A DNA stretch of 64,000 nt from Vulcanimicrobium alpinum. GTDB lineage: Bacteria; Vulcanimicrobiota; Vulcanimicrobiia; Vulcanimicrobiales; Vulcanimicrobiaceae. The position numbers and the translations under genes were made by a program. The notes under the pieces are model-generated. The model saw only the letters and a list, made by a program, of their open reading frames with translations, was not told the origin of the DNA and ran no database searches. Positions within the stretch are counted from its first letter, which is position 1; every line of letters starts with the position of its first letter. Shown here piece by piece: positions 24,340 through 38,343 of this stretch. The DNA lies in contig NZ_AP025523.1 of NCBI RefSeq assembly GCF_027923555.1, positions 1,864,484 through 1,928,483 on the forward strand, given 5' to 3'.

Positions 24340-25194
24340 ATGCGTGTTGCGACGCTCCGGACCTCCGACGGATGCCGCGCAGCGCGCATCGACGGCGATC
24401 GAGCGATTCTGCTGCAGTTCGCCGACGTGCGCGACTTGCTCGAACGCCCCGATTGGCTGACGCAGGCGAAGGCCGGCGGTCCCGACGTCGCGCTCGAAAC
24501 GGTCGCCTTCGCGCCGCTCGTACCGCGCCCGGACAAGTTCTTCTGCGTCGGATTCAACTACCTCGCGCACATCGCCGAGCTGAAGATGGAGCCGCCGGCG
24601 TATCCGAGCCTGTTCGCGAAGTTCGCTCGCGCGCTGATCGGTGCGCGTGATCCGATCGCCATGCCGCACGCCTCCGAGCAAGTTGCTTGGGAGGTCGAAC
24701 TGGGAGTGGTGATCGGCCGGTCCGTACGCGCCGCGGATCGCGCGACGGCACGGGCTGCAATCGCAGGCTATACGATCGTCAACGACGTCTCCGTGCGCGA
24801 CTGGCAGATGCGCACGCGTCAGGCGCTGCAGGGCAAGACGTGGGAGCGAACCACTCCCCTCGGACCGGTGCTCGTCACCCCGGACGAGGTCGATGACGCC
24901 GTCGACCTGCGCATCCAAACGCTGATCGACGGCGCGATCGTGCAAGACTCCACGACGGCCGACATGCAGTTTTCGCCCGCTGATCTCATCAGCTATATCA
25001 GCACGTTCGTGACGCTCGACCCGGGCGACATCATCTCGACGGGTTCGCCGTCGGGGGTCGGTCTGTCGCGCACGCCGCCCCGCTGGCTGCGCAGCGGCGA
25101 GACCCTGACCACCCGCATCGCGGGGATCGGCGAACTGGTCAATCGCTGCGTCGATGAGGACGCGTGGGCGCCCGCGACGAGCAAAGCGCCCTGA
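24340..25194 (+). CDS. Fumarylacetoacetate hydrolase (FAH) family protein
   Basis: A 284-residue FAH-fold enzyme. An N-terminal 70-residue segment precedes the catalytic domain, with 'KFFCVGFNYLAHIAELKM', the metal-binding 'VAWEVELGVVIGRSVR', 'GYTIVNDVSVRDWQMR', 'GKTWERTTPLGPVLVTPDEV' and 'GDIISTGSPSGVG'. Members are acylpyruvases, 2-oxo-hepta-4-ene-dioate isomerases/decarboxylases or oxaloacetate decarboxylases; the substrate cannot be told from sequence. Its end overlaps the start of an SDR gene, suggesting a two-gene catabolic unit that the insertion element has broken. Confidence 0.9.
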   Translation: MRVATLRTSDGCRAARIDGDRAILLQFADVRDLLERPDWLTQAKAGGPDVALETVAFAPLVPRPDKFFCVGFNYLAHIAELKMEPPAYPSLFAKFARALIGARDPIAMPHASEQVAWEVELGVVIGRSVRAADRATARAAIAGYTIVNDVSVRDWQMRTRQALQGKTWERTTPLGPVLVTPDEVDDAVDLRIQTLIDGAIVQDSTTADMQFSPADLISYISTFVTLDPGDIISTGSPSGVGLSRTPPRWLRSGETLTTRIAGIGELVNRCVDEDAWAPATSKAP

Positions 25195-25711
25195 GCGCCC
25201 CCGGCACGCTCGTCGTCACCGGCGGCGGACGCGGCATCGGTTCGGCGATCACGCGCTGCGCCGCCGAACGCGGATGGGCGGTCGCGGTGAACTACCTGCG
25301 CGACCGCGAGTCGGCCGAAGCCGTCGTGAACGACATCGTCGCACGCGGCGGGAGCGCGGTCGCGATCGGCGCGGATATCGGCGACCCGCTCGCGGCTGCG
25401 CGACTCGTCGCGCAGGCACAGGAAGCGCTCGGGCCGATCGCGGGCCTGGTCAACAACGCCGCGATCACCGGCGGGATCGCGCGGGTCGCCGACGTCGATG
25501 CGGCGACGCTCGCCCGCGTCTTCGCCGTCAACGTCATCGGCGCGATGGTCTGCGCGCGCAAAGCGGTGCGCCGGATGTCGAAAGCAAACGGCGGCTTCGG
25601 CGGCGCGATCGTCAACATCTCTTCGCGCGCCGCCGTCTACGGAAGTGCCGGTGAGTGGGTGCACTATGCCGCGAGCAAAGCGGCGATCGACGCGTTCACG
25701 GTCGGGCTAGC
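25164..25711 (+). pseudogene. SDR dehydrogenase truncated by an insertion element
   Basis: Residues 1-182 are a normal SDR: 'LVVTGGGRGIGSAI', 'LVNNAAITGGIA', 'VNISSRAAVYG' and 'YAASKAAIDAFTVGLA'. The host sequence stops at GCTAGC (25706-25711) and continues as insertion-element DNA; the frame reads through about 21 foreign codons to a stop at 25775. The missing part would hold the substrate-binding loop and C-terminus (about 65 residues). I found no remaining 3' piece on the far side of the element. The catalytic Ser, Tyr and Lys are present but the protein is probably inactive. It starts GTG inside the FAH gene. Confidence 0.85.
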
Positions 25712-25719
25712 TGTCGAGA

Positions 25720-26790
25720 CTACGCGCCTCGTTTACGGGCCGCGGCCCAACGTGAGGCGGGGGTCTCGTAGTTGATGGCCGTGTGCCGGCGGTCCTCGTT
25801 GTAGTACCGGAGCCACGCCGGGAGGGCGTCTCGGCGCTCGTCGCTGGTGCGATAAGCGACCGCGTACGCCCACTCGCGCAGCATGGTCTGGATGAAGCGC
25901 TCCGCTTTGCCGTTCCAACGCGGCGTGTAGGGCGGCGTGAAAATGTGTCGCGCACCGATCGACCTCATCATTGACTCGAACGCGTTCGAGCTGAACACTT
26001 TGCCGTTGTCAGTCATGACTCGTTCGATTCGCACGCCGCGACGAGCGTAAAGAATCGCGAGCCGCCGCAAGAAGTCTGCGGCCGAGGTCGCGTCTTCCCG
26101 CGTGTATACGCGTGTTTCAGTCCGGCGGCTGGCATCGTCGACCGCGACAAAGATGACGTCGTAGCCGACGTGCCTGGAGCACTTCGTGCGATCGCCGTGG
26201 ATGCGGTGCCCCACGCGCTCAAATCGTGCGATCTTCTTGATGTCAATGTGAACGAGCTCGCCGGGTCGGCGATACTCATAACGCTGCGTAAAGCGGGCCG
26301 GCTCGAGGTCGCGCAGACGCGCGATGTTGAGCCGCTTGAGTACCTTGATGACCGTCGAGCGCGCCATCGACAGTGCTTCGGCGATTTGCCGTGAGACCTG
26401 ACTCTTGGAGATGCCTGTCATCCCCATCGCCTTGACGAGCTCGTCGACCGAGCGCGTGGAGATGCCCTGGATGTAGGCCTCTTGGATGACGGCGGTGAGC
26501 GCCTTCTCCGCCGTGCGGCGCGGCTCGAGGAACGCGGGGAAGTAGCTACCTTTGCGCAACTTGGGGATGCGCAGTCCGATCGTGCCGGAACGCGTCTCCC
26601 ATTGGCGCTCGCGGAAGCCGTTGCGGGCGTTCTGTCGGCCGGGGCCGCGCTCGCCGTAGGGCAAGCCGCAGAGTTCCTCAACATCGATCTCCATGATCCG
26701 CTGCGCGGCGTACTGGAGCATCTCGCGAACGAAGTCGACGTCGCCGCCCTTTTCGACGAGCTCGGAAAGTGCGATACTGGGTTTGGCCAT
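25720..26790 (-). CDS. Chimeric transposase: IS256-type N-terminus, IS481-type DDE domain
   Basis: A 356-residue protein. Residues 1-134 match the N-terminal region of IS256/Mutator transposases ('[20 protein letters not shown]', '[19 protein letters not shown]', '[18 protein letters not shown]', '[20 protein letters not shown]'). Residues about 135-356 match IS481-type integrase-like transposases ('[14 protein letters not shown]', '[16 protein letters not shown]', '[12 protein letters not shown]', '[18 protein letters not shown]'). The DDE triad of the second part is complete: Asp183, Asp261, Glu297. The IS256 catalytic domain is absent. The join is near base 26388. It starts ATG 26790 with AAAGGGA 7 bases upstream. 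Confidence 0.85.
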
Positions 26791-29284: not shown

Positions 29285-29357
29285 GGGGACGTAGCTCAGC
29301 TGGTAGAGCGCCTGCTTTGCAAGCAGGATGTCAGGGGTTCGAGTCCCCTCGTCTCCA
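29285..29357 (+). tRNA. tRNA-Ala (TGC anticodon)
   Basis: A full cloverleaf: acceptor GGGGACG/CGTCTCC with one G-U pair, D-arm AGCTCAGCTGGTAGAGC, anticodon stem CCTGC/GCAGG around TTTGCAA (anticodon TGC), T-arm GGGGTTCGAGTCCCC. CCA is not encoded. It stands alone, not in an rRNA spacer. Confidence 0.97.
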
Positions 29358-30047: not shown

Positions 30048-30989
30048 GTGCGTAGACTCGTTTTTGCCGTTTTCGTCGTCTTCTGCGCGGCAGGGACGAC
30101 CTGGCCGCCTGAAGCGCTCGCGTCCCAGAAATCGGACGCCTACCGGGCCACGGTCCTGAGCGATCATCCGCTGGCGTACTACCGCCTCGACGAACGCTCC
30201 GGCAGCGTCGCGCACGATTCGTCCGGACACCATCTCGACGGAACGATCGGTGCGCACGTGAAGCTCGGCGCGCCGCCGGTGATCGCGGATGCCGCCTCGT
30301 CGATGGAATTCTCAGGCGCCGACACGTCGTCGGGCGCCGAAGACGTTCGCATCCGCGGGAACTCGCGCTTCCAGGTGACGAAGAACGTGACGATCGAAGC
30401 GTGGGCGCTGCCCTTTACCATCAGCGTGCACGGCAAGAACGCCGGCGACATTACGATCGCGGCGTACGGCCGCGACGATGCGCCCGACAAGCAGCACTGC
30501 CGCTACGCGCTCGAACTGGACGCTCACAGCCACGTGTGGCATTTCCCTGTTGTCGCTAAAGGAAAGCGTACCGATCCGATTCCCGTGCGGGGCGTTCACA
30601 GCCTGCTCACGTGGCTGGCGCAGCCGTTCCAGGGCGACTCGGTCGAAGCACGCGAACTGTATGCGGGAGATCAAACGGACGGCAATCCCCCCAACGTGCG
30701 CGAGCGCTATCACCTCGTCGGCACCTACGACGGAGAGACGATGCGTTTCTACGTCAACGGAAAGCTGAGCAACGCGATGCACGTGAAGGGACTGATTTTT
30801 GGCTACGGAGCCCACGACGGGATGGGGATCGGCGGCGAGTTCGTCGACCGCAATGCGGTCTTCTTCGGTCGCATCGGCGAGGTTGCCGTGTACGATCACG
30901 TGCTGACGGCCGACCAGATCCAGCGCCACTACGAAGCGGGGATCGCGACACCGGTCCCGACAGCGGTAACGCGGCTCAGCCGGCGATGA
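30048..30989 (+). CDS. Exported LamG/concanavalin-A-like domain protein
   Basis: A 313-residue protein with a signal peptide (residues 1-25, ending 'EALAS'). The mature part is a jelly-roll LamG-type domain: 'HPLAYYRLDERSGSVAHDSS', 'ITGG'-like strand replaced by 'ADAASSMEFSGADTS', 'TIEAWALPFTISV', 'HLVGTYDGETMRFYVNGKL' and the closing 'FFGRIGEVAVYDHVLTADQI'. Such domains bind glycans or proteins at the cell surface. An extra loop of about 60 residues sits in the middle. The stop overlaps the start of the next gene (ATGA), making it the first gene of a four-gene coupled operon. Confidence 0.85.
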   Translation: MRRLVFAVFVVFCAAGTTWPPEALASQKSDAYRATVLSDHPLAYYRLDERSGSVAHDSSGHHLDGTIGAHVKLGAPPVIADAASSMEFSGADTSSGAEDVRIRGNSRFQVTKNVTIEAWALPFTISVHGKNAGDITIAAYGRDDAPDKQHCRYALELDAHSHVWHFPVVAKGKRTDPIPVRGVHSLLTWLAQPFQGDSVEARELYAGDQTDGNPPNVRERYHLVGTYDGETMRFYVNGKLSNAMHVKGLIFGYGAHDGMGIGGEFVDRNAVFFGRIGEVAVYDHVLTADQIQRHYEAGIATPVPTAVTRLSRR

Positions 30990-33900
30990 GGGCCGAGGCG
31001 GCCCCGCACACGACGGCGATGGAGCACGTGCGAGGAAGCGCGGCGGTCCTCGCGACGCTCGCCGGACTCGTCCTCGCGGCGCTCGCCGTTCGCCTCATCG
31101 CTCTCGCGTGGCTGGGCTCGCCGCTGATCGATATGGACGGTGCGAACTTTGCGCGCACCGCCGAGAATCTCGCACACGGATATGGCTACATCGGGATCCG
31201 CGGCACGCCGAACTCGGTGCACGTCTCGATCTTCCCCGCGATCGTCGCGGCGCTGGTCTGGATCGGGATCAGCGCCGAACGCGCCGGGATCATCGTCTCG
31301 CTCGTTGCCGGGTCGCTGCTCGTCGTCCCCGTCTACGCGATCGCGTCCCGCCTCGCCGGGACGCGCGCCGCGATGGTCGCGGCCGGGATCGTCGCAATCA
31401 ACCCGATCGCCGTCGCGACCTCCGTGACGCCGCTCGCCGATTCGCTCGCATTCACCCTTGCCGTCACCGGGCTGCATGCGTTCCTGCGTTCGCGCGAGAA
31501 CCCGCGCTGGGCTCTCGCGGCCGGCGCATGGTTCGGCCTCGCGTATTGCACGCGCAGCGAGACGATCGTCTACGCGTTCGTTGCACTGTGCGCCGTGATG
31601 CTCGCCGTGCGCACGCAGCGCGGCAGCGCACTCCGGCGCGCCGCGGCGTTGGCGGTGGCCTTCGCCGTCTTCGCCGTGCCGTACGCGGTCGTCATCTCGC
31701 GCGCGACCGGTCACGCCCGGATCGATACCAAGTCCGCCGTCAACTACGCCCTCGCCGAGCGCATCGCCCAAGGCATGTCGTACGATGAGGCTGCCGACGG
31801 TCTCGGCCCCGGGCTCCGCGAGGACGGCGCGGAACTCGGCGCCGGATTCTATGCGACGCACCCCGGGATCGGCGACCCGCCCCTGCGCGCGCGGCTCGCC
31901 CTCGCGGTACGCGGTTTCCGCAGTCAGGTCGCGCGGATCGGGCGGGCCCTGCTCTCGTTCAATTTCGGTACGCCCCTCTTTGCCGCGTTTGCGCTGGCCG
32001 GGCTCGTACGAGGCCTGCGCCGTCCAGGGGTTCGCGGCGTGTACGGGATCGTCGGCGCGATCGCCTCGCTCGACCTCTGCGGACTGCTCACCCTGCAGCA
32101 CTTGTGGCCGCGGTATGTCGCGCCGTTCGTCCCGCTCTTCGCGATCCTCGCAGCCGAGCCGCTCGACGCGCTCGTCGCCCGCTTCAGCGAGCGAACGACG
32201 CCCGGGATCCGGCGCGGGGCCGTCGTGCTCGGGCTGATCGTCGTGACCGCGTATCTCGGTCTCTCCGCGCACCGGCTCAGCGCCGAGACCGTCGACGCGA
32301 CGCTCGCGCGCCGCGCCGCCGCATGGCTCGACGCCGACGCGCCGGGACCGAAATTGATCATGGCGGTCGGCAACGAGGTCGCGTTCTACGCCCACGGCGA
32401 TTGGATGCCGCTGCCCTACGCGAACTCCGCCGAGACGCTCGCTTACGTCCGCGGGAAGCGCCCGACGTATCTGCTGCTCGAAGGGTCGCGCACAGCGGCG
32501 CGACCGTACCTCTCCGCGTGGCTGCGCGACGGCGTCCCCGATGCGTCGGCACACTTCGTCAAAGACTTCGGATCGGGAGCGGACCGTCTGGCGATCTATG
32601 CGTGGAACGCGAATGCCGCCAGCGCCGTCGCGCCGCCGGCGCGCATCCCCGAGCCGCCGGCCGACGATGCCGTGGTTCGCGCGTCACGGGTGCTCTGGTC
32701 GGCGCCGCCCGGCTCGCTGCCCACATCGGCGACGCACGATTCGGTCGACGTGCTGACGGCGCACAACGACGTCGGCCGCCTGGGTTGGAACGATCGCGAA
32801 CGGAGCCTCACGACGGCGAACGTCGCCTCGCGCGCGTTCGGAAAGCGGCTGGAACTTCCGATCGACGGACAAAGCTACGGACAGCCGCTAATCGTCACGG
32901 GGGTCGACGTCCCGGGCCTGGGCCGCCGCACGCTGCTGATCGCGGCGACGGAACGCGACAGCGTGTACGCCTTCGACGCTGACAGCGGTGCGAAGCTGTG
33001 GGTGCACACGTTCACCGGATGCTGCGGCGCCGCCCCGGCACCGTTGCAGATGCTCACCGATACGCCGTGCGAATCGGTGAAGCCGGTCGTCGGCGTGTCG
33101 TCGGTGCCGGTCGTCGACCGCCGCACCGGTACGCTGTACGTCGTCGCGAAGACGATGACGCGCCGCGGAAAGGACGTGACGTTTCACAGCACGCTGCACG
33201 CGCTCTCGCTGGCGACCGGCGCCGATCGTCTGCGGCCGGCTGAGATCCGCGGACGCGCATCGGTTTCGCTGCGGGGCGTCTTCGCGCCGGATCACGCGTT
33301 CCGCCACAGCGTGCGCCGGCTGCTCCCCGGCGGCGGGACGGCGACCTTCGATCCGCGCGCGCAGTACAATCGACCGGGGCTGCTGCTCGCGAACGGTCTG
33401 CTCTACATCGGCTTCGGTTCGCACTGCGACGTCCAGTCGTCGCACGGCTGGGTCTTCGCCTACCGCGCCGCCGATCTGGCGCAGGTCGGCTCCTTCGCGA
33501 CGACCCGAGACTGGAACGACGAGAACCTCGGCAGCGTGTGGCAGGCGGGTTTCGGGATCACCGGCGACCGTTCAGGCGACGTCTACTTTCTGACCGGCAA
33601 CGGACCGTTCAACGCGGACGAAGGCGGCCGCAACTTCGGCAACTCGCTGATGAAGCTCACCCCCGATCTCGGACGCGTCCTCGACTACTTCACGCCCTAC
33701 ACCCAGCGCGAACTGCAGGAAAACGACGCCGACTTCGGCGGGGGCGGGATGATCGCGCTCCCCGACGGCACCGGGCCGCATGCGCATCTGGGAGTCGTCA
33801 GCAGCAAAGTGCGCGCGATCTTCCTTATCGATCGCGATCGCCTCGGGCGTTATGTGCCGCGCGGTCCCGACCGCGTGCTGCAGACGATCGGCGACAATCA

Positions 33901-34351
33901 CGACGACACGCACTGGTGCATCGGCACGTGCGGCGGCCCGGCGTACTACGCCGGCCCCGCAGGCGAGTACGTGTTCAACGTGTGGGCGCTCGACGCGCTG
34001 CGAGCCTACCGCCTCGACCGGCAGCGCGAGCGTCCGAAGCTGGTCGAAGTCGCGCATTCGCCGAACGTCTTTCCCGGCTCCGGCGGGTCGATCCCGAGCG
34101 TCTCGTCGAACGGACGGCTGCCCGGAACGGGAATCGTCTGGAGCTTGACCCGTCCCAACATCCGCGACGTCGCGACCAAGCCGATCGAACTCTATGCATA
34201 CGATGCCTCCGACGTCTCGCACGTGCTCTATCACGGTGACGTCTCGCTCTGGCCGAACAAAGTCGGACACCCGTTCTTGACGCCGACGATCGCCAACGGC
34301 CGCGTCTACGTCGGCGGGGACCACAGTATCTCGGTCTTCGGTCTGCGATGA
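30986..34351 (+). CDS. GT-C membrane glycosyltransferase fused to a beta-propeller domain
   Basis: An 1121-residue fusion. Residues about 18-400 form a polytopic membrane domain like PMT/ArnT-type GT-C glycosyltransferases, with the first-loop acidic motif 'SPLIDMDGANFARTAENLA' and many transmembrane helices; these use polyprenyl-phosphate sugars. Residues about 410-570 form a soluble domain. Residues about 590-1121 are a PQQ-like beta-propeller ('HNDVGRLGWNDRERSLTTAN', 'SVYAFDADSGAKLWVHTFTG', 'CIGTCGGPAYYAGPAGEYVF'), homologous to the whole protein encoded two genes downstream. The propeller is predicted periplasmic. I know no characterised protein of this architecture. Both ends overlap neighbours by 4 bases. 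Confidence 0.85.
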   Translation: MRAEAAPHTTAMEHVRGSAAVLATLAGLVLAALAVRLIALAWLGSPLIDMDGANFARTAENLAHGYGYIGIRGTPNSVHVSIFPAIVAALVWIGISAERAGIIVSLVAGSLLVVPVYAIASRLAGTRAAMVAAGIVAINPIAVATSVTPLADSLAFTLAVTGLHAFLRSRENPRWALAAGAWFGLAYCTRSETIVYAFVALCAVMLAVRTQRGSALRRAAALAVAFAVFAVPYAVVISRATGHARIDTKSAVNYALAERIAQGMSYDEAADGLGPGLREDGAELGAGFYATHPGIGDPPLRARLALAVRGFRSQVARIGRALLSFNFGTPLFAAFALAGLVRGLRRPGVRGVYGIVGAIASLDLCGLLTLQHLWPRYVAPFVPLFAILAAEPLDALVARFSERTTPGIRRGAVVLGLIVVTAYLGLSAHRLSAETVDATLARRAAAWLDADAPGPKLIMAVGNEVAFYAHGDWMPLPYANSAETLAYVRGKRPTYLLLEGSRTAARPYLSAWLRDGVPDASAHFVKDFGSGADRLAIYAWNANAASAVAPPARIPEPPADDAVVRASRVLWSAPPGSLPTSATHDSVDVLTAHNDVGRLGWNDRERSLTTANVASRAFGKRLELPIDGQSYGQPLIVTGVDVPGLGRRTLLIAATERDSVYAFDADSGAKLWVHTFTGCCGAAPAPLQMLTDTPCESVKPVVGVSSVPVVDRRTGTLYVVAKTMTRRGKDVTFHSTLHALSLATGADRLRPAEIRGRASVSLRGVFAPDHAFRHSVRRLLPGGGTATFDPRAQYNRPGLLLANGLLYIGFGSHCDVQSSHGWVFAYRAADLAQVGSFATTRDWNDENLGSVWQAGFGITGDRSGDVYFLTGNGPFNADEGGRNFGNSLMKLTPDLGRVLDYFTPYTQRELQENDADFGGGGMIALPDGTGPHAHLGVVSSKVRAIFLIDRDRLGRYVPRGPDRVLQTIGDNHDDTHWCIGTCGGPAYYAGPAGEYVFNVWALDALRAYRLDRQRERPKLVEVAHSPNVFPGSGGSIPSVSSNGRLPGTGIVWSLTRPNIRDVATKPIELYAYDASDVSHVLYHGDVSLWPNKVGHPFLTPTIANGRVYVGGDHSISVFGLR

Positions 34352-35568
34352 GGATCGCGCTCGCGGTGCACAAACGAGCCGCGATACGTGCAGCGATCTT
34401 CAGCCTCGTCGTGAGCGCTCTCGGGGCGACGGCGTCAAACGCCGCGATGCAGATGACGCCGGCGAACGCGAACGAATCGGCGCTCGCCGCGCGCGCGGAC
34501 GGGACGTTCGCCGCTGTCCCCGAGGTGCACGGACGCACGAAGACGTTCCGGCTCGTCGCCCGGGAAGCGCAATGGACGCTGCGCTCGGGCGTCACCGCCG
34601 CGGCGCGAACCTACAACGGCGTCGTCCCCGGTCCGACGCTCGTCGTGAATCAAGGCGATCGCGTCGTCATCGACTTCACCAACGAGCTCGACGTCCCCGA
34701 CACGATCCATCTGCACGGCATCCACGGCGCACCGCCGGAGATGGACGGCGTCGCCGGGATCTCGCAGCCGCTTGTGGCGCCGCACGGCACCTTTCGCTAC
34801 GAGTTTACCGCGAACGAAGACGGAACGTTTCTCTATCACAGTCACAGCAACGAGGCGGTGCTCGATTCCGGACTCTACGGCGGGATCATCGTCGAACCGG
34901 CGCACCCGCGCGCAGTCGAGCGCGGGCTCAGCGGTGATTACCTCGAAATCCTCTCAGCCTGGCAGCTCGGGGGCGGTCCGGAAGATCATTTCACGATCAA
35001 CGGCAAGGAGTATCCGGAGACCCGGCAGATCGAGGTCCGCCGCGGCGACCGCGTTCGCATCCGGTGGATCAACATCTCGTCCGAGAACGAACACACGATG
35101 CATTCACACGGACATGATCAGCGTGTGATCGCCCGCGATGCGCGTCCGGTCCCCGATGGTGACGTCGAAGATACCGTGATGATCGGCCCCGGCCAGCGCG
35201 TAGACGTGGTCGTCACGGCCGACGCAATCCCCGGGACGTGGATCGTGCACTGTCATTTTCTCGACCACACGCAGGATCAACAGGGGATGCCCTCCGGTCT
35301 GATCACCGCCCTCCACTATCGCGGGACGCCCAACGTGTTCGCCGCGATGGATGAATCGATGCGGATCGACATGCCGGCGATGATGCAGCCTTCGATGCAC
35401 GGTGCGCCGCAGGCGGCGCCGTTCCGGCCGTCGCGCCGCGTGCTCCTTGCGCTGATCGTCGCGCTCGCGGCGGCGATCTGCGTCGGAGTGCTCGCAGTCC
35501 GGCGGCTGCGCGCCTCGCGCCGACGCATCCTCGCCGCCGAGCGCGGCCGGAGACTCCGCAGACCATGA
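34348..35568 (+). CDS. Membrane-anchored two-domain multicopper oxidase
   Basis: A 406-residue protein with a signal peptide (1-33) and a C-terminal transmembrane helix (about 364-384) followed by an Arg-rich tail. Copper motifs are in order: HLHG (121-124), HSHS (164-167), HSHGH (252-256) and HCHFLDH (301-307). These supply ligands for a type 1 site and a trinuclear cluster. Met314 is 7 residues after His307, where 5 is usual, so the axial ligand is uncertain. It oxidises a phenol, metal ion or other reductant with O2 (family knowledge). It is coupled by ATGA to both neighbours, so it belongs to the propeller operon. Confidence 0.9.
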   Translation: MRIALAVHKRAAIRAAIFSLVVSALGATASNAAMQMTPANANESALAARADGTFAAVPEVHGRTKTFRLVAREAQWTLRSGVTAAARTYNGVVPGPTLVVNQGDRVVIDFTNELDVPDTIHLHGIHGAPPEMDGVAGISQPLVAPHGTFRYEFTANEDGTFLYHSHSNEAVLDSGLYGGIIVEPAHPRAVERGLSGDYLEILSAWQLGGGPEDHFTINGKEYPETRQIEVRRGDRVRIRWINISSENEHTMHSHGHDQRVIARDARPVPDGDVEDTVMIGPGQRVDVVVTADAIPGTWIVHCHFLDHTQDQQGMPSGLITALHYRGTPNVFAAMDESMRIDMPAMMQPSMHGAPQAAPFRPSRRVLLALIVALAAAICVGVLAVRRLRASRRRILAAERGRRLRRP

Positions 35569-37286
35569 ACGCTCGTATCGCCGTCGCGCTCATCCTGACC
35601 GTCGTCGCGACGGCCGCCGCGATGTGGGCGCGACCCGATCGCGCTCGAGCCTCCGCCGCGGCGACCGATTATCTGACCTTCCACTACGACAACGCGCGGC
35701 TGGGCTGGAACCCGCGCGAGTCCGTGCTCACGACGAGCAACGTGAACTCGCGCACGTTCGGCCTGAAGTTCCGAATCCCGGTCGAGGGACAGGTGTACGC
35801 GCAGCCGCTGTACGTGCACGGCGTCGCAATCCCCAACCGCGGAACGCACAACGTACTGATCGTGGCGACGCAGCGCGACGTCGTCTACGCGTTCGACGCC
35901 GACACGGGAGAACGGCTGTGGATGCAGCGCGTCGCCGGCTGCTGCCGCGCGGAGCCCGTCGACGTGTCGTACATCGGCGACTGCCACGTCTCGCCGAAGA
36001 TCGGCATCTCGTCGACGCCGGCGATCGACCGCGCCTCCAATACGGTGTTCGTGGTCGCCAAGGCGATGCGCAGCGAGGAGGGACGGATGACGTTCCACCA
36101 TTCCCTGCACGCCCTCGCGCTCGATACCGGACAGGAACGACGAGAACCGGCCGAGATCACCGGGACGACGACGCTCACGAACCGCGGCGTGTTCACGCTC
36201 GGCCCGACCTGGAAGCACAGCCTGCGCCGCCTGCTCGGCAATACGCTGCGATTCGACCCGCTGGTGCAGTACAGCCGCACGGGAGTGCTGCTGAGCAACG
36301 GCATCCTCTACTTCGGCTACGGTTCGCACTGTCACGATCCGCAAGCGCACGGCTGGGTCTTCGCCTATCGCGCAAGCGATCTGAAGCAAGTCGGCAGCTT
36401 CGTCACGCTTCGTGATTGGCAAGCCGTCAACGGCGGCGGCGTGTGGCAGGGCGGCTTCGGGATCAGCGCCGACGACGGCGGCAACCTCTACCTCACCACG
36501 TCCAACGGTCCGTTCAACGCGAACGACGGCGGCCTGAACTACGGCGACAGCGCGCTCAAGATGTCGCCGGATCTGCGCGTGCTCGACTCGTTCACGCCGT
36601 ACACGCAGGCCGAACTCGAAGCGAACGCAGCCGATTTCGGCGGGAGCGGGATGCTGCTGCTGCCCGCGCAGCGCGGGGCTTTTCCGCACCTCGCGCTCGC
36701 GGCGAGCAAGGTGCGCGCCATCTTTCTGCTCGACCGCGATCACCTCGGAGGGTACACGCCGGGCGGTCCGGACAAGATCCTGCAAGTCATCGGCGACGAG
36801 CATGACAACACCGTGTGGTGCATCGGCACGTGCGGAGGACCTGCGTACTACGACGGCCCGACGGGGCAGTTGATCTTCAACGCCTGGGCGCAGGACGCGC
36901 TGCGCGCATATCGTCTGGTGACCGGCAGCGGACGTCCGCGGCTCGTCCCCGCCGGCCAGTCGCGCAACACGTTCCCCGGCTCCGGCGGTGCGATTCCGAC
37001 CGTCTCCTCGAACGGCAAGACACCGGGGACCGGGATCGTGTGGGTGACGACGCGGCCGAACATCAACGAGGTCACGACCCGGCCCGTCCAACTGCTCGCC
37101 TACGATGCGACCGACCTCTCACGCATCCTCGTGACGGAGCCGATCGGCTTGTGGCCCAACAGTCACGGTCACCCGTTCCTCTCGCCGACGGTCGTCAACG
37201 GCAACGTCTACGTCGGCGGCTACGACAGCGTCTTCGTGTTCGGCCTGCGGGCCGGCGCGAGCGTCGCTCGGACTGCGCGGCGCTGA
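35565..37286 (+). CDS. Exported PQQ-like beta-propeller protein
   Basis: A 573-residue protein with a signal peptide or anchor (1-30) and a single propeller domain. It aligns end to end with the C-terminal half of the GT-C fusion: 'YDNARLGWNPRESVLTTSNV', 'VVYAFDADTGERLWMQRVAG', 'FGYGSHCHDPQAHGWVFAYR', 'TSNGPFNANDGGLNYGDSAL', 'CIGTCGGPAYYDGPTGQLIF' and 'FPGSGGAIPTVSSNGKTPGT'. Shared Cys pairs (GCC, GSHC, CIGTC) suggest periplasmic disulfides or metal sites. No quinone-dehydrogenase signature is seen, so I do not call it a PQQ enzyme. It is last of four overlapping genes. Confidence 0.85.
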   Translation: MNARIAVALILTVVATAAAMWARPDRARASAAATDYLTFHYDNARLGWNPRESVLTTSNVNSRTFGLKFRIPVEGQVYAQPLYVHGVAIPNRGTHNVLIVATQRDVVYAFDADTGERLWMQRVAGCCRAEPVDVSYIGDCHVSPKIGISSTPAIDRASNTVFVVAKAMRSEEGRMTFHHSLHALALDTGQERREPAEITGTTTLTNRGVFTLGPTWKHSLRRLLGNTLRFDPLVQYSRTGVLLSNGILYFGYGSHCHDPQAHGWVFAYRASDLKQVGSFVTLRDWQAVNGGGVWQGGFGISADDGGNLYLTTSNGPFNANDGGLNYGDSALKMSPDLRVLDSFTPYTQAELEANAADFGGSGMLLLPAQRGAFPHLALAASKVRAIFLLDRDHLGGYTPGGPDKILQVIGDEHDNTVWCIGTCGGPAYYDGPTGQLIFNAWAQDALRAYRLVTGSGRPRLVPAGQSRNTFPGSGGAIPTVSSNGKTPGTGIVWVTTRPNINEVTTRPVQLLAYDATDLSRILVTEPIGLWPNSHGHPFLSPTVVNGNVYVGGYDSVFVFGLRAGASVARTARR

Positions 37287-38248: not shown

Positions 38249-38321
38249 GGGGGATTAGCTCAGTTGGTAGAGCACCTGCATGGCATGCAGGGGGTCAGGA
38301 GTTCGAGTCTCCTATCCTCCA
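38249..38321 (+). tRNA. tRNA-Ala (GGC anticodon)
   Basis: A complete cloverleaf: acceptor GGGGGAT/ATCCTCC, D-arm AGCTCAGTTGGTAGAGC, anticodon stem CCTGC/GCAGG around ATGGCAT (anticodon GGC), T-arm AGGAGTTCGAGTCTCCT. CCA is not encoded. This second alanine isoacceptor reads the GC-ending codons common in this genome. Confidence 0.97.
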
Positions 38322-38343
38322 CAACGACGTCTGAAGCGCGCGA

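Follow-up and report, generated by a model that had tools for sequence, protein, structure and literature searches.

A translationally coupled operon for a LamG protein, a glycosyltransferase-propeller fusion, a multicopper oxidase and a second propeller in Vulcanimicrobium alpinum

The stretch of DNA analyzed here, which we call the window, comprises 64,000 nucleotides of the genome (a single contig of 3,508,363 bases) of Vulcanimicrobium alpinum, a bacterium of soil or rock, and has a G+C content of 68.55%. Between positions 30048 and 37286 of its plus strand lie four consecutive genes, which encode a LamG protein (30048..30989, with a GTG start), a GT-C glycosyltransferase fused to a β-propeller (30986..34351, 1121 aa), a multicopper oxidase (MCO; 34348..35568, 406 aa) and a free propeller (35565..37286, 573 aa). 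All three junctions are 4-nt ATGA stop/start overlaps, in the context GCG ATGA at 30986..30989 (LamG/GT) and 34348..34351 (GT-propeller/MCO) and in the context ACC ATGA at 35565..35568 (MCO/propeller), and the layout of four genes joined only by such junctions, as described in an earlier note on this DNA, was thus borne out. Overlaps of this length occur at seven of the 43 same-strand neighbor pairs in the window and, with three of the seven falling consecutively at the operon, translational coupling is well supported. The four proteins are very probably co-expressed, judging by this gene arrangement, although coupling alone is no proof that they bind one another. A promoter scan, which fits the sigma-70 consensus only, found no promoter-like site. 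The operon is flanked by two tRNA-Ala genes (29285-29357 and 38249-38322, anticodons tgc and ggc). Elsewhere in the window a short-chain dehydrogenase gene (25164-25775) is seemingly cut short where a minus-strand, transposase-like gene (25720-26790) begins, possibly by an insertion.

The product of the first gene (30048..30989, 313 aa) begins with a hydrophobic, signal-peptide-like N terminus and matches Pfam Laminin_G_3 above the curated cut-off (1.6e-14), a family of the laminin G/ConA-like lectin fold; sugar binding by this protein is putative. A paralogue that is 57% identical to it is encoded elsewhere in the same genome (G000:C1:562176-563036; L210:9180-10061) with no MCO adjoining; near this paralogue, on the opposite strand, lies the gene for a 592-aa protein that has no Pfam match.

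The second gene begins with a PMT_2-type GT-C domain (30986..32665) of about nine hydrophobic helices, which scores well above the Pfam PMT_2 cut-off (4.6e-12; 46.9 bits against 26.1). Its first loop carries the acidic motif IDMDG, kept as IDM(D/E)G in four homologues, from which catalysis is predicted. The multi-TM fold, the PMT_2 match and the acidic motif are all shared with the GT-C polyprenyl-phosphate sugar transferases related to ArnT and PMT. In contrast to those enzymes, the window transferase is fused to an extracytoplasmic propeller, which is unseen in its other homologues, and among 110 distinct propeller homologues the GT-propeller fusion occurs in the window protein only. We did not read the topology of the transferase from the AlphaFold model of the full-length fusion because this part of the model is unreliable (mean pLDDT 62).

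The third gene (34348..35568) encodes a two-domain MCO with a signal peptide, all of the T1, T2 and T3 copper ligands and a single C-terminal TM helix (35428..35490). Its matches to Pfam Cu-oxidase_3 (2.2e-39) and Cu-oxidase_2 (7.8e-29) are both above the curated cut-offs. The ligands H121, H123, H164, H166, H249, H252, H254, H301, C302, H303 and H307 are invariant or nearly so across 31-32 relatives; at the column of M314, Met is the most frequent residue (22 of 32 relatives). The nearest solved sequences are those of two-domain oxidases, for example 2zwn and 3g5w. Domain 1 of the window MCO has HSH at 164-166, with no Cys, and domain 2 has HCH at 301-303; in 2zwn, on the other hand, HCH is found in domain 1, and the placement of the T1 ligands in domain 2 is the type B arrangement. 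With the type B two-domain MCOs, which comprise bacterial small laccases and are kin of the two-domain MCOs of ammonia-oxidizing archaea, the window protein shares its two cupredoxin domains, the eight His ligands of the trinuclear site and a T1 site (H249, C302, H307, M314) confined to domain 2. It differs from them in ending in a TM anchor, where type B enzymes have a soluble end, and in sharing an operon with a LamG protein and propellers, and its nearest relatives carry a fused ZIP domain.

Close relatives of this MCO occur across the phylum (53-66% identity, 566-654 aa), and in these the oxidase runs into a domain of 6-9 TM helices at the position held in the window protein by the single anchor. 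The match of this TM domain to ZIP transporters is weak (30.8 bits and lower, against a cut-off of 35.1), and the ZIP-like motifs HNxxEG and HNxTEG are invariant in all 24 aligned proteins. Such MCO-ZIP fusions are widespread in the phylum (L161-L178 and L214-L226, for example L161:1357-3258 and L214:8394-10295) and a single chain of this kind is plausibly a one-piece metal oxidase-importer, of which we found no description in the open-licence literature. The ZIP domain and its HNxxEG motifs are absent from the window MCO and also from the homologous MCO of another genome of the genus (G123, contig C430), and there is no ZIP match anywhere in the V. alpinum genome. In a tree the two MCOs pair with support of 95/83 inside the ZIP-fused clade; the simplest history is therefore a single loss of the ZIP half, in the lineage of MCOs that adjoin a LamG gene. 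On its sequence, then, the window MCO is a descendant of the MCO-ZIP fusions of the phylum that has lost its transporter half.

This descent bears on the substrate. In ammonia-oxidizing archaea a two-domain MCO adjoins a zinc/iron permease, and the pair has been proposed, but not proven, to couple copper uptake to oxidation; archaeal ammonia oxidizers raise the expression of the two-domain MCO under copper limitation (PMC7785015). As with Fet3-Ftr1 and with this archaeal pair of MCO and ZIP permease, the ancestral partner of the window MCO in the phylum is a transporter, in this case ZIP; unlike them, the window MCO is without its transporter half in a genome without a ZIP match. In view of the ancestry together with the archaeal parallel, a metal ion has to be taken seriously as a candidate for the substrate, and the ancestry alone suggests a metal ion at least as much as the glycan or phenolic named in the earlier note. 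The main rival to the envelope-tethered module that we favor (set out below) builds on exactly this evidence, namely that the MCO would oxidize Cu(I)/Fe(II) in the periplasm and serve metal tolerance after the loss of ZIP, its operon partners being co-expressed envelope housekeeping. The descent from MCO-ZIP fusions, the archaeal MCO beside a permease that responds to copper limitation and the absence of ZIP from the genome all fit this pure metal-oxidase reading, but we think it unlikely, given that a LamG-MCO-propeller fusion in one relative (G096) and a LamG-MCO gene pair in another (G123) argue for one task shared by the partners.

Type B two-domain MCOs also include laccases, one of which, from Cellvibrio japonicus, has been examined on lignin (PMC13151041). 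A laccase-type role, in which the module would oxidize phenolics or modified surface polysaccharide and so cross-link or pigment the matrix, gains from this and from the carbohydrate-binding domains that recur on propellers of the family described below; set against the fusion of the nearest MCO relatives to a metal transporter, however, it appears to us quite unlikely.

The two propellers of the operon, one occupying residues ∼580-1121 of the fusion (32723..34348) and the other forming the free protein (35565..37286), which has an N-terminal signal or anchor and eight blades, are 56% identical over 559 aa, and the earlier description of them as homologues is confirmed. The AlphaFold model of the free propeller is of high confidence (mean pLDDT 92.4, pTM 0.93). 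Six cysteines are present in each and common to both, lying in GCC, at a single C ∼13 residues later, in GSHC and in CIGTC. Sharing of GCC, GSHC and CIGTC had been noticed earlier and stands; a fifth motif, DTPC/GDCH, had been overlooked. We traced the six-cysteine set to the two window propellers and to G091:C77, the wider family having mostly two cysteines. In a tree of 21 sequences the window pair groups with G091 (100/100), and within this clade the fused copy and G091 are sisters (98/97); the two window propellers therefore do not stem from a recent local duplication. The genome has only these two propeller genes, both of them in the operon.

Propeller homologues are present in 59 of the 149 genomes of the phylum, and the family as a whole has at least 569 loci in several phyla (Acidobacteriota, Verrucomicrobiota, Ktedonobacteria and others) whose members live predominantly in soil and peat; beyond the phylum, the best 80 of these at least 569 loci were fetched, with flanks of up to 10 kb. 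These loci came from a scan of genome contigs with the propeller alignment; with the free propeller alone as query, the scan gave no match. We know of no function for this family. Long N-terminal extensions are found in 37 of the 110 distinct homologues fetched, and the fusion partners include malectin (L058 and L059, in G123 and G118), LamG (L123, L125 and L141, in Verrucomicrobiota) and MCO (L066 and L070). In three propeller proteins (L053:7528-10632, L056:6193-10521 and L057:8629-12126) the N-terminal regions, of ∼500-950 aa, gave no hit in Pfam at E 0.1.

Against Pfam the window propellers give only weak, sub-threshold matches to PQQ_2/BamB, and sequence searches of solved structures with the propeller, either as a single sequence or as a 72-member profile, returned no useful match. 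Searched by structure, the propeller model is placed by Foldseek closest to quinoprotein alcohol dehydrogenases, which VIA aligns with a Z of ∼29 over ∼410 residues; designed propellers, BamB and YxaL score as high or higher in VIA, over ∼300-345 residues. The window propellers have the same fold as BamB and the secreted YxaL-type propellers but are ∼200 residues longer, and their score against the BamB family model falls far short of its cut-off (TIGR03300, 16.5 bits against 285.2). Comparison by hhalign of the propeller family with 30 diverse PQQ dehydrogenases of the phylum gave a probability of 98-99% over 438 colinear columns, the diverse set being used in place of ten near-identical PQQ alcohol dehydrogenases, against which the match was blade-shifted.

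Residue roles are assigned here as in methanol dehydrogenase and XoxF. When the propellers and the PQQ dehydrogenases are aligned together by L-INS-i, the Asn metal ligand is kept in 66 of 72 family members, the catalytic Asp in 63 and the Asp two residues on (Asp+2) in 69, and a Lys takes the position of the PQQ-binding Arg in 68. The Arg of the NRG motif has become Pro in 66 of the 72, the metal-binding Glu is replaced and the vicinal Cys pair is not conserved in place. At the catalytic Asp column as drawn by L-INS-i, which hhalign places differently, Asp is found in the window fusion and Ala in the free propeller. The GCC of the window propellers was considered as the quinoprotein vicinal disulfide, but the alignment gives this no support, as GCC falls elsewhere in the loop and Cys_a is absent. 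Compared with the PQQ alcohol dehydrogenases (XoxF, PedH and the quinohemoprotein enzyme of Pseudomonas putida HK5), the family shares an eight-bladed propeller, colinear full-length homology and, by L-INS-i and for the most part, the Asn/Asp/Asp/Lys positions (with the Asp column dependent on the alignment method), but it is without the vicinal disulfide, the NRG Arg and the metal Glu, and by L-INS-i the free copy lacks the catalytic Asp. Both window propellers fall below all PQQ family cut-offs (TIGR03075, PF01011), and the genome has no PqqE over cut-off, which weakens the case for PQQ use by the propellers.

From these comparisons the window propellers are members of a large, uncharacterized secreted family of distant homologues of PQQ alcohol dehydrogenases, and it may be that they are themselves enzymes, or derive from enzymes, instead of serving only for passive docking. 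No family with a defined and unrelated role, a match to which the earlier note took as telling against its proposal, was found for the propellers, although this distant homology was; the role that it gave them, docking partners of the oxidase, is compatible with our data. They could also be active quinoprotein-type dehydrogenases from which electrons would reach the MCO at its T1 copper and then O2, the two together forming a two-enzyme extracellular oxidase. The full-length homology, the fold matches, the retained Asn, Asp, Asp+2 and Lys and the joining of MCO and propeller in one chain in two relatives (G096 and G095) all favor such an assembly. Taken with the misplaced vicinal Cys, the Pro for the NRG Arg, the replaced metal Glu, the Ala of the free propeller at a column where two alignment methods disagree and the lack of PqqE, however, it strikes us as very unlikely. 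A fuller scheme, in which a quinoprotein-like propeller would oxidize a sugar or alcohol of a surface glycan built by the propeller-bearing transferase and hand the electrons straight to the T1 copper in a cytochrome-free relay, we regard as scarcely probable.

The neighborhood search that the earlier note had called for found the full four-gene set in no other genome among the 149 of the phylum, so in this strict sense the set does not recur. None of 40 propeller loci of the phylum (mostly ∼20 kb) has a transferase, MCO or LamG gene of the window type beside the propeller. Genes of the relatives were called with a simple codon-model caller, and most of the relatives are draft assemblies. Parts of the set do recur. 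On G123:C430, a LamG gene (52% identity) and an MCO gene (65%) lie on the same strand, the stop of the first overlapping or abutting the start of the second (TTGACACGATG), and a homologous transferase gene (31%), from the same small family as that of the window, converges on them. The best matches outside the V. alpinum genome to three independent queries thus fall within one stretch of ∼4 kb; this cluster is without a propeller, and its transferase is closer to EPS-type paralogues. In G096:C9 (L070:6014-10576), LamG (147-263), a three-domain MCO (339-830) with an intact T1 motif (HCHILSHEDGGMM) and a propeller (1001-1520) make up one 1520-aa protein, and a truncated MCO-propeller frame at a broken contig of G095 (L066:3439-5946) corresponds to the end of a G096-like protein. 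Because the MCO of G096 has three domains and that of the window two, the LamG-MCO-propeller association has either arisen repeatedly or taken different forms. No frame of MCO-propeller size was seen among the strong matches to the G096-type MCO in 50 genomes of other phyla, and the open-licence literature yielded nothing on an MCO with a β-propeller and LamG, nor on the four-gene set.

Together, the G096 fusion, the MCO-propeller protein of G095 and the LamG-MCO pair beside a transferase gene in G123 give good support to a LamG-MCO-propeller link, in keeping with the functional association suggested earlier, and the existence of the three as one protein in a related genome indicates that they probably work together. 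This link provides the propeller family with its first concrete biochemical partner and, given the homology to PQQ dehydrogenases, what the propeller does can be tested directly. The link between transferase and propeller is less well supported by the sequences. In G107 a PMT_2 gene (L055:5491-7146) overlaps a propeller gene (L055:7146-10676) at TAATG, and the encoded transferase is unrelated by BLAST to that of the window. The product of this propeller gene has a 680-aa N-terminal part with no Pfam match. Chance assembly, by which an unrelated transferase and propellers would have been inserted beside a LamG-MCO pair and co-transcribed with no shared role, is in line with a set seen once and with a propeller pair that did not arise by recent local duplication. 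The three consecutive ATGA overlaps, the independent LamG-MCO-propeller fusion and the presence in the operon of both propeller genes that the genome has argue otherwise, and we hold such an origin to be very improbable.

All parts of the operon are of known kinds, and the full combination is so far unique to the window. Our preferred reading, which we put forward tentatively, is that the operon encodes an O2-dependent oxidase module that is tethered to the envelope and linked to a glycan of the cell surface. Acting on the outer side of the membrane, the GT-C enzyme would add a lipid-carried sugar to a glycan or glycoprotein of the surface, and the LamG protein and the propellers would bind this material and so keep the oxidase in place. 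With O2 as oxidant, the MCO would act at its T1 copper on a small substrate; descent from ZIP fusions makes a metal ion, whether Cu(I), Fe(II) or Mn(II), the likeliest, with a phenolic as the alternative. As the importer is gone, the role would be detoxification or matrix modification and not uptake. It is the surface location, the glycan link and the substrate of the module that we infer. Counting against the module are the single occurrence of the set and of the GT-propeller fusion, the G123 cluster without a propeller, the unrelated transferase of G107, the low identity (31%) of the G123:C430 transferase to that of the window and the three-domain type of the G096 MCO. The envelope-glycan setting anticipated by the earlier note agrees with the surroundings of two relatives: the propeller gene of G091, the closest relative, lies among polysaccharide biosynthesis genes, with glycosyltransferases and an ABC transporter, and the gene for a malectin-propeller protein in G123:C444 adjoins a polysaccharide export gene.
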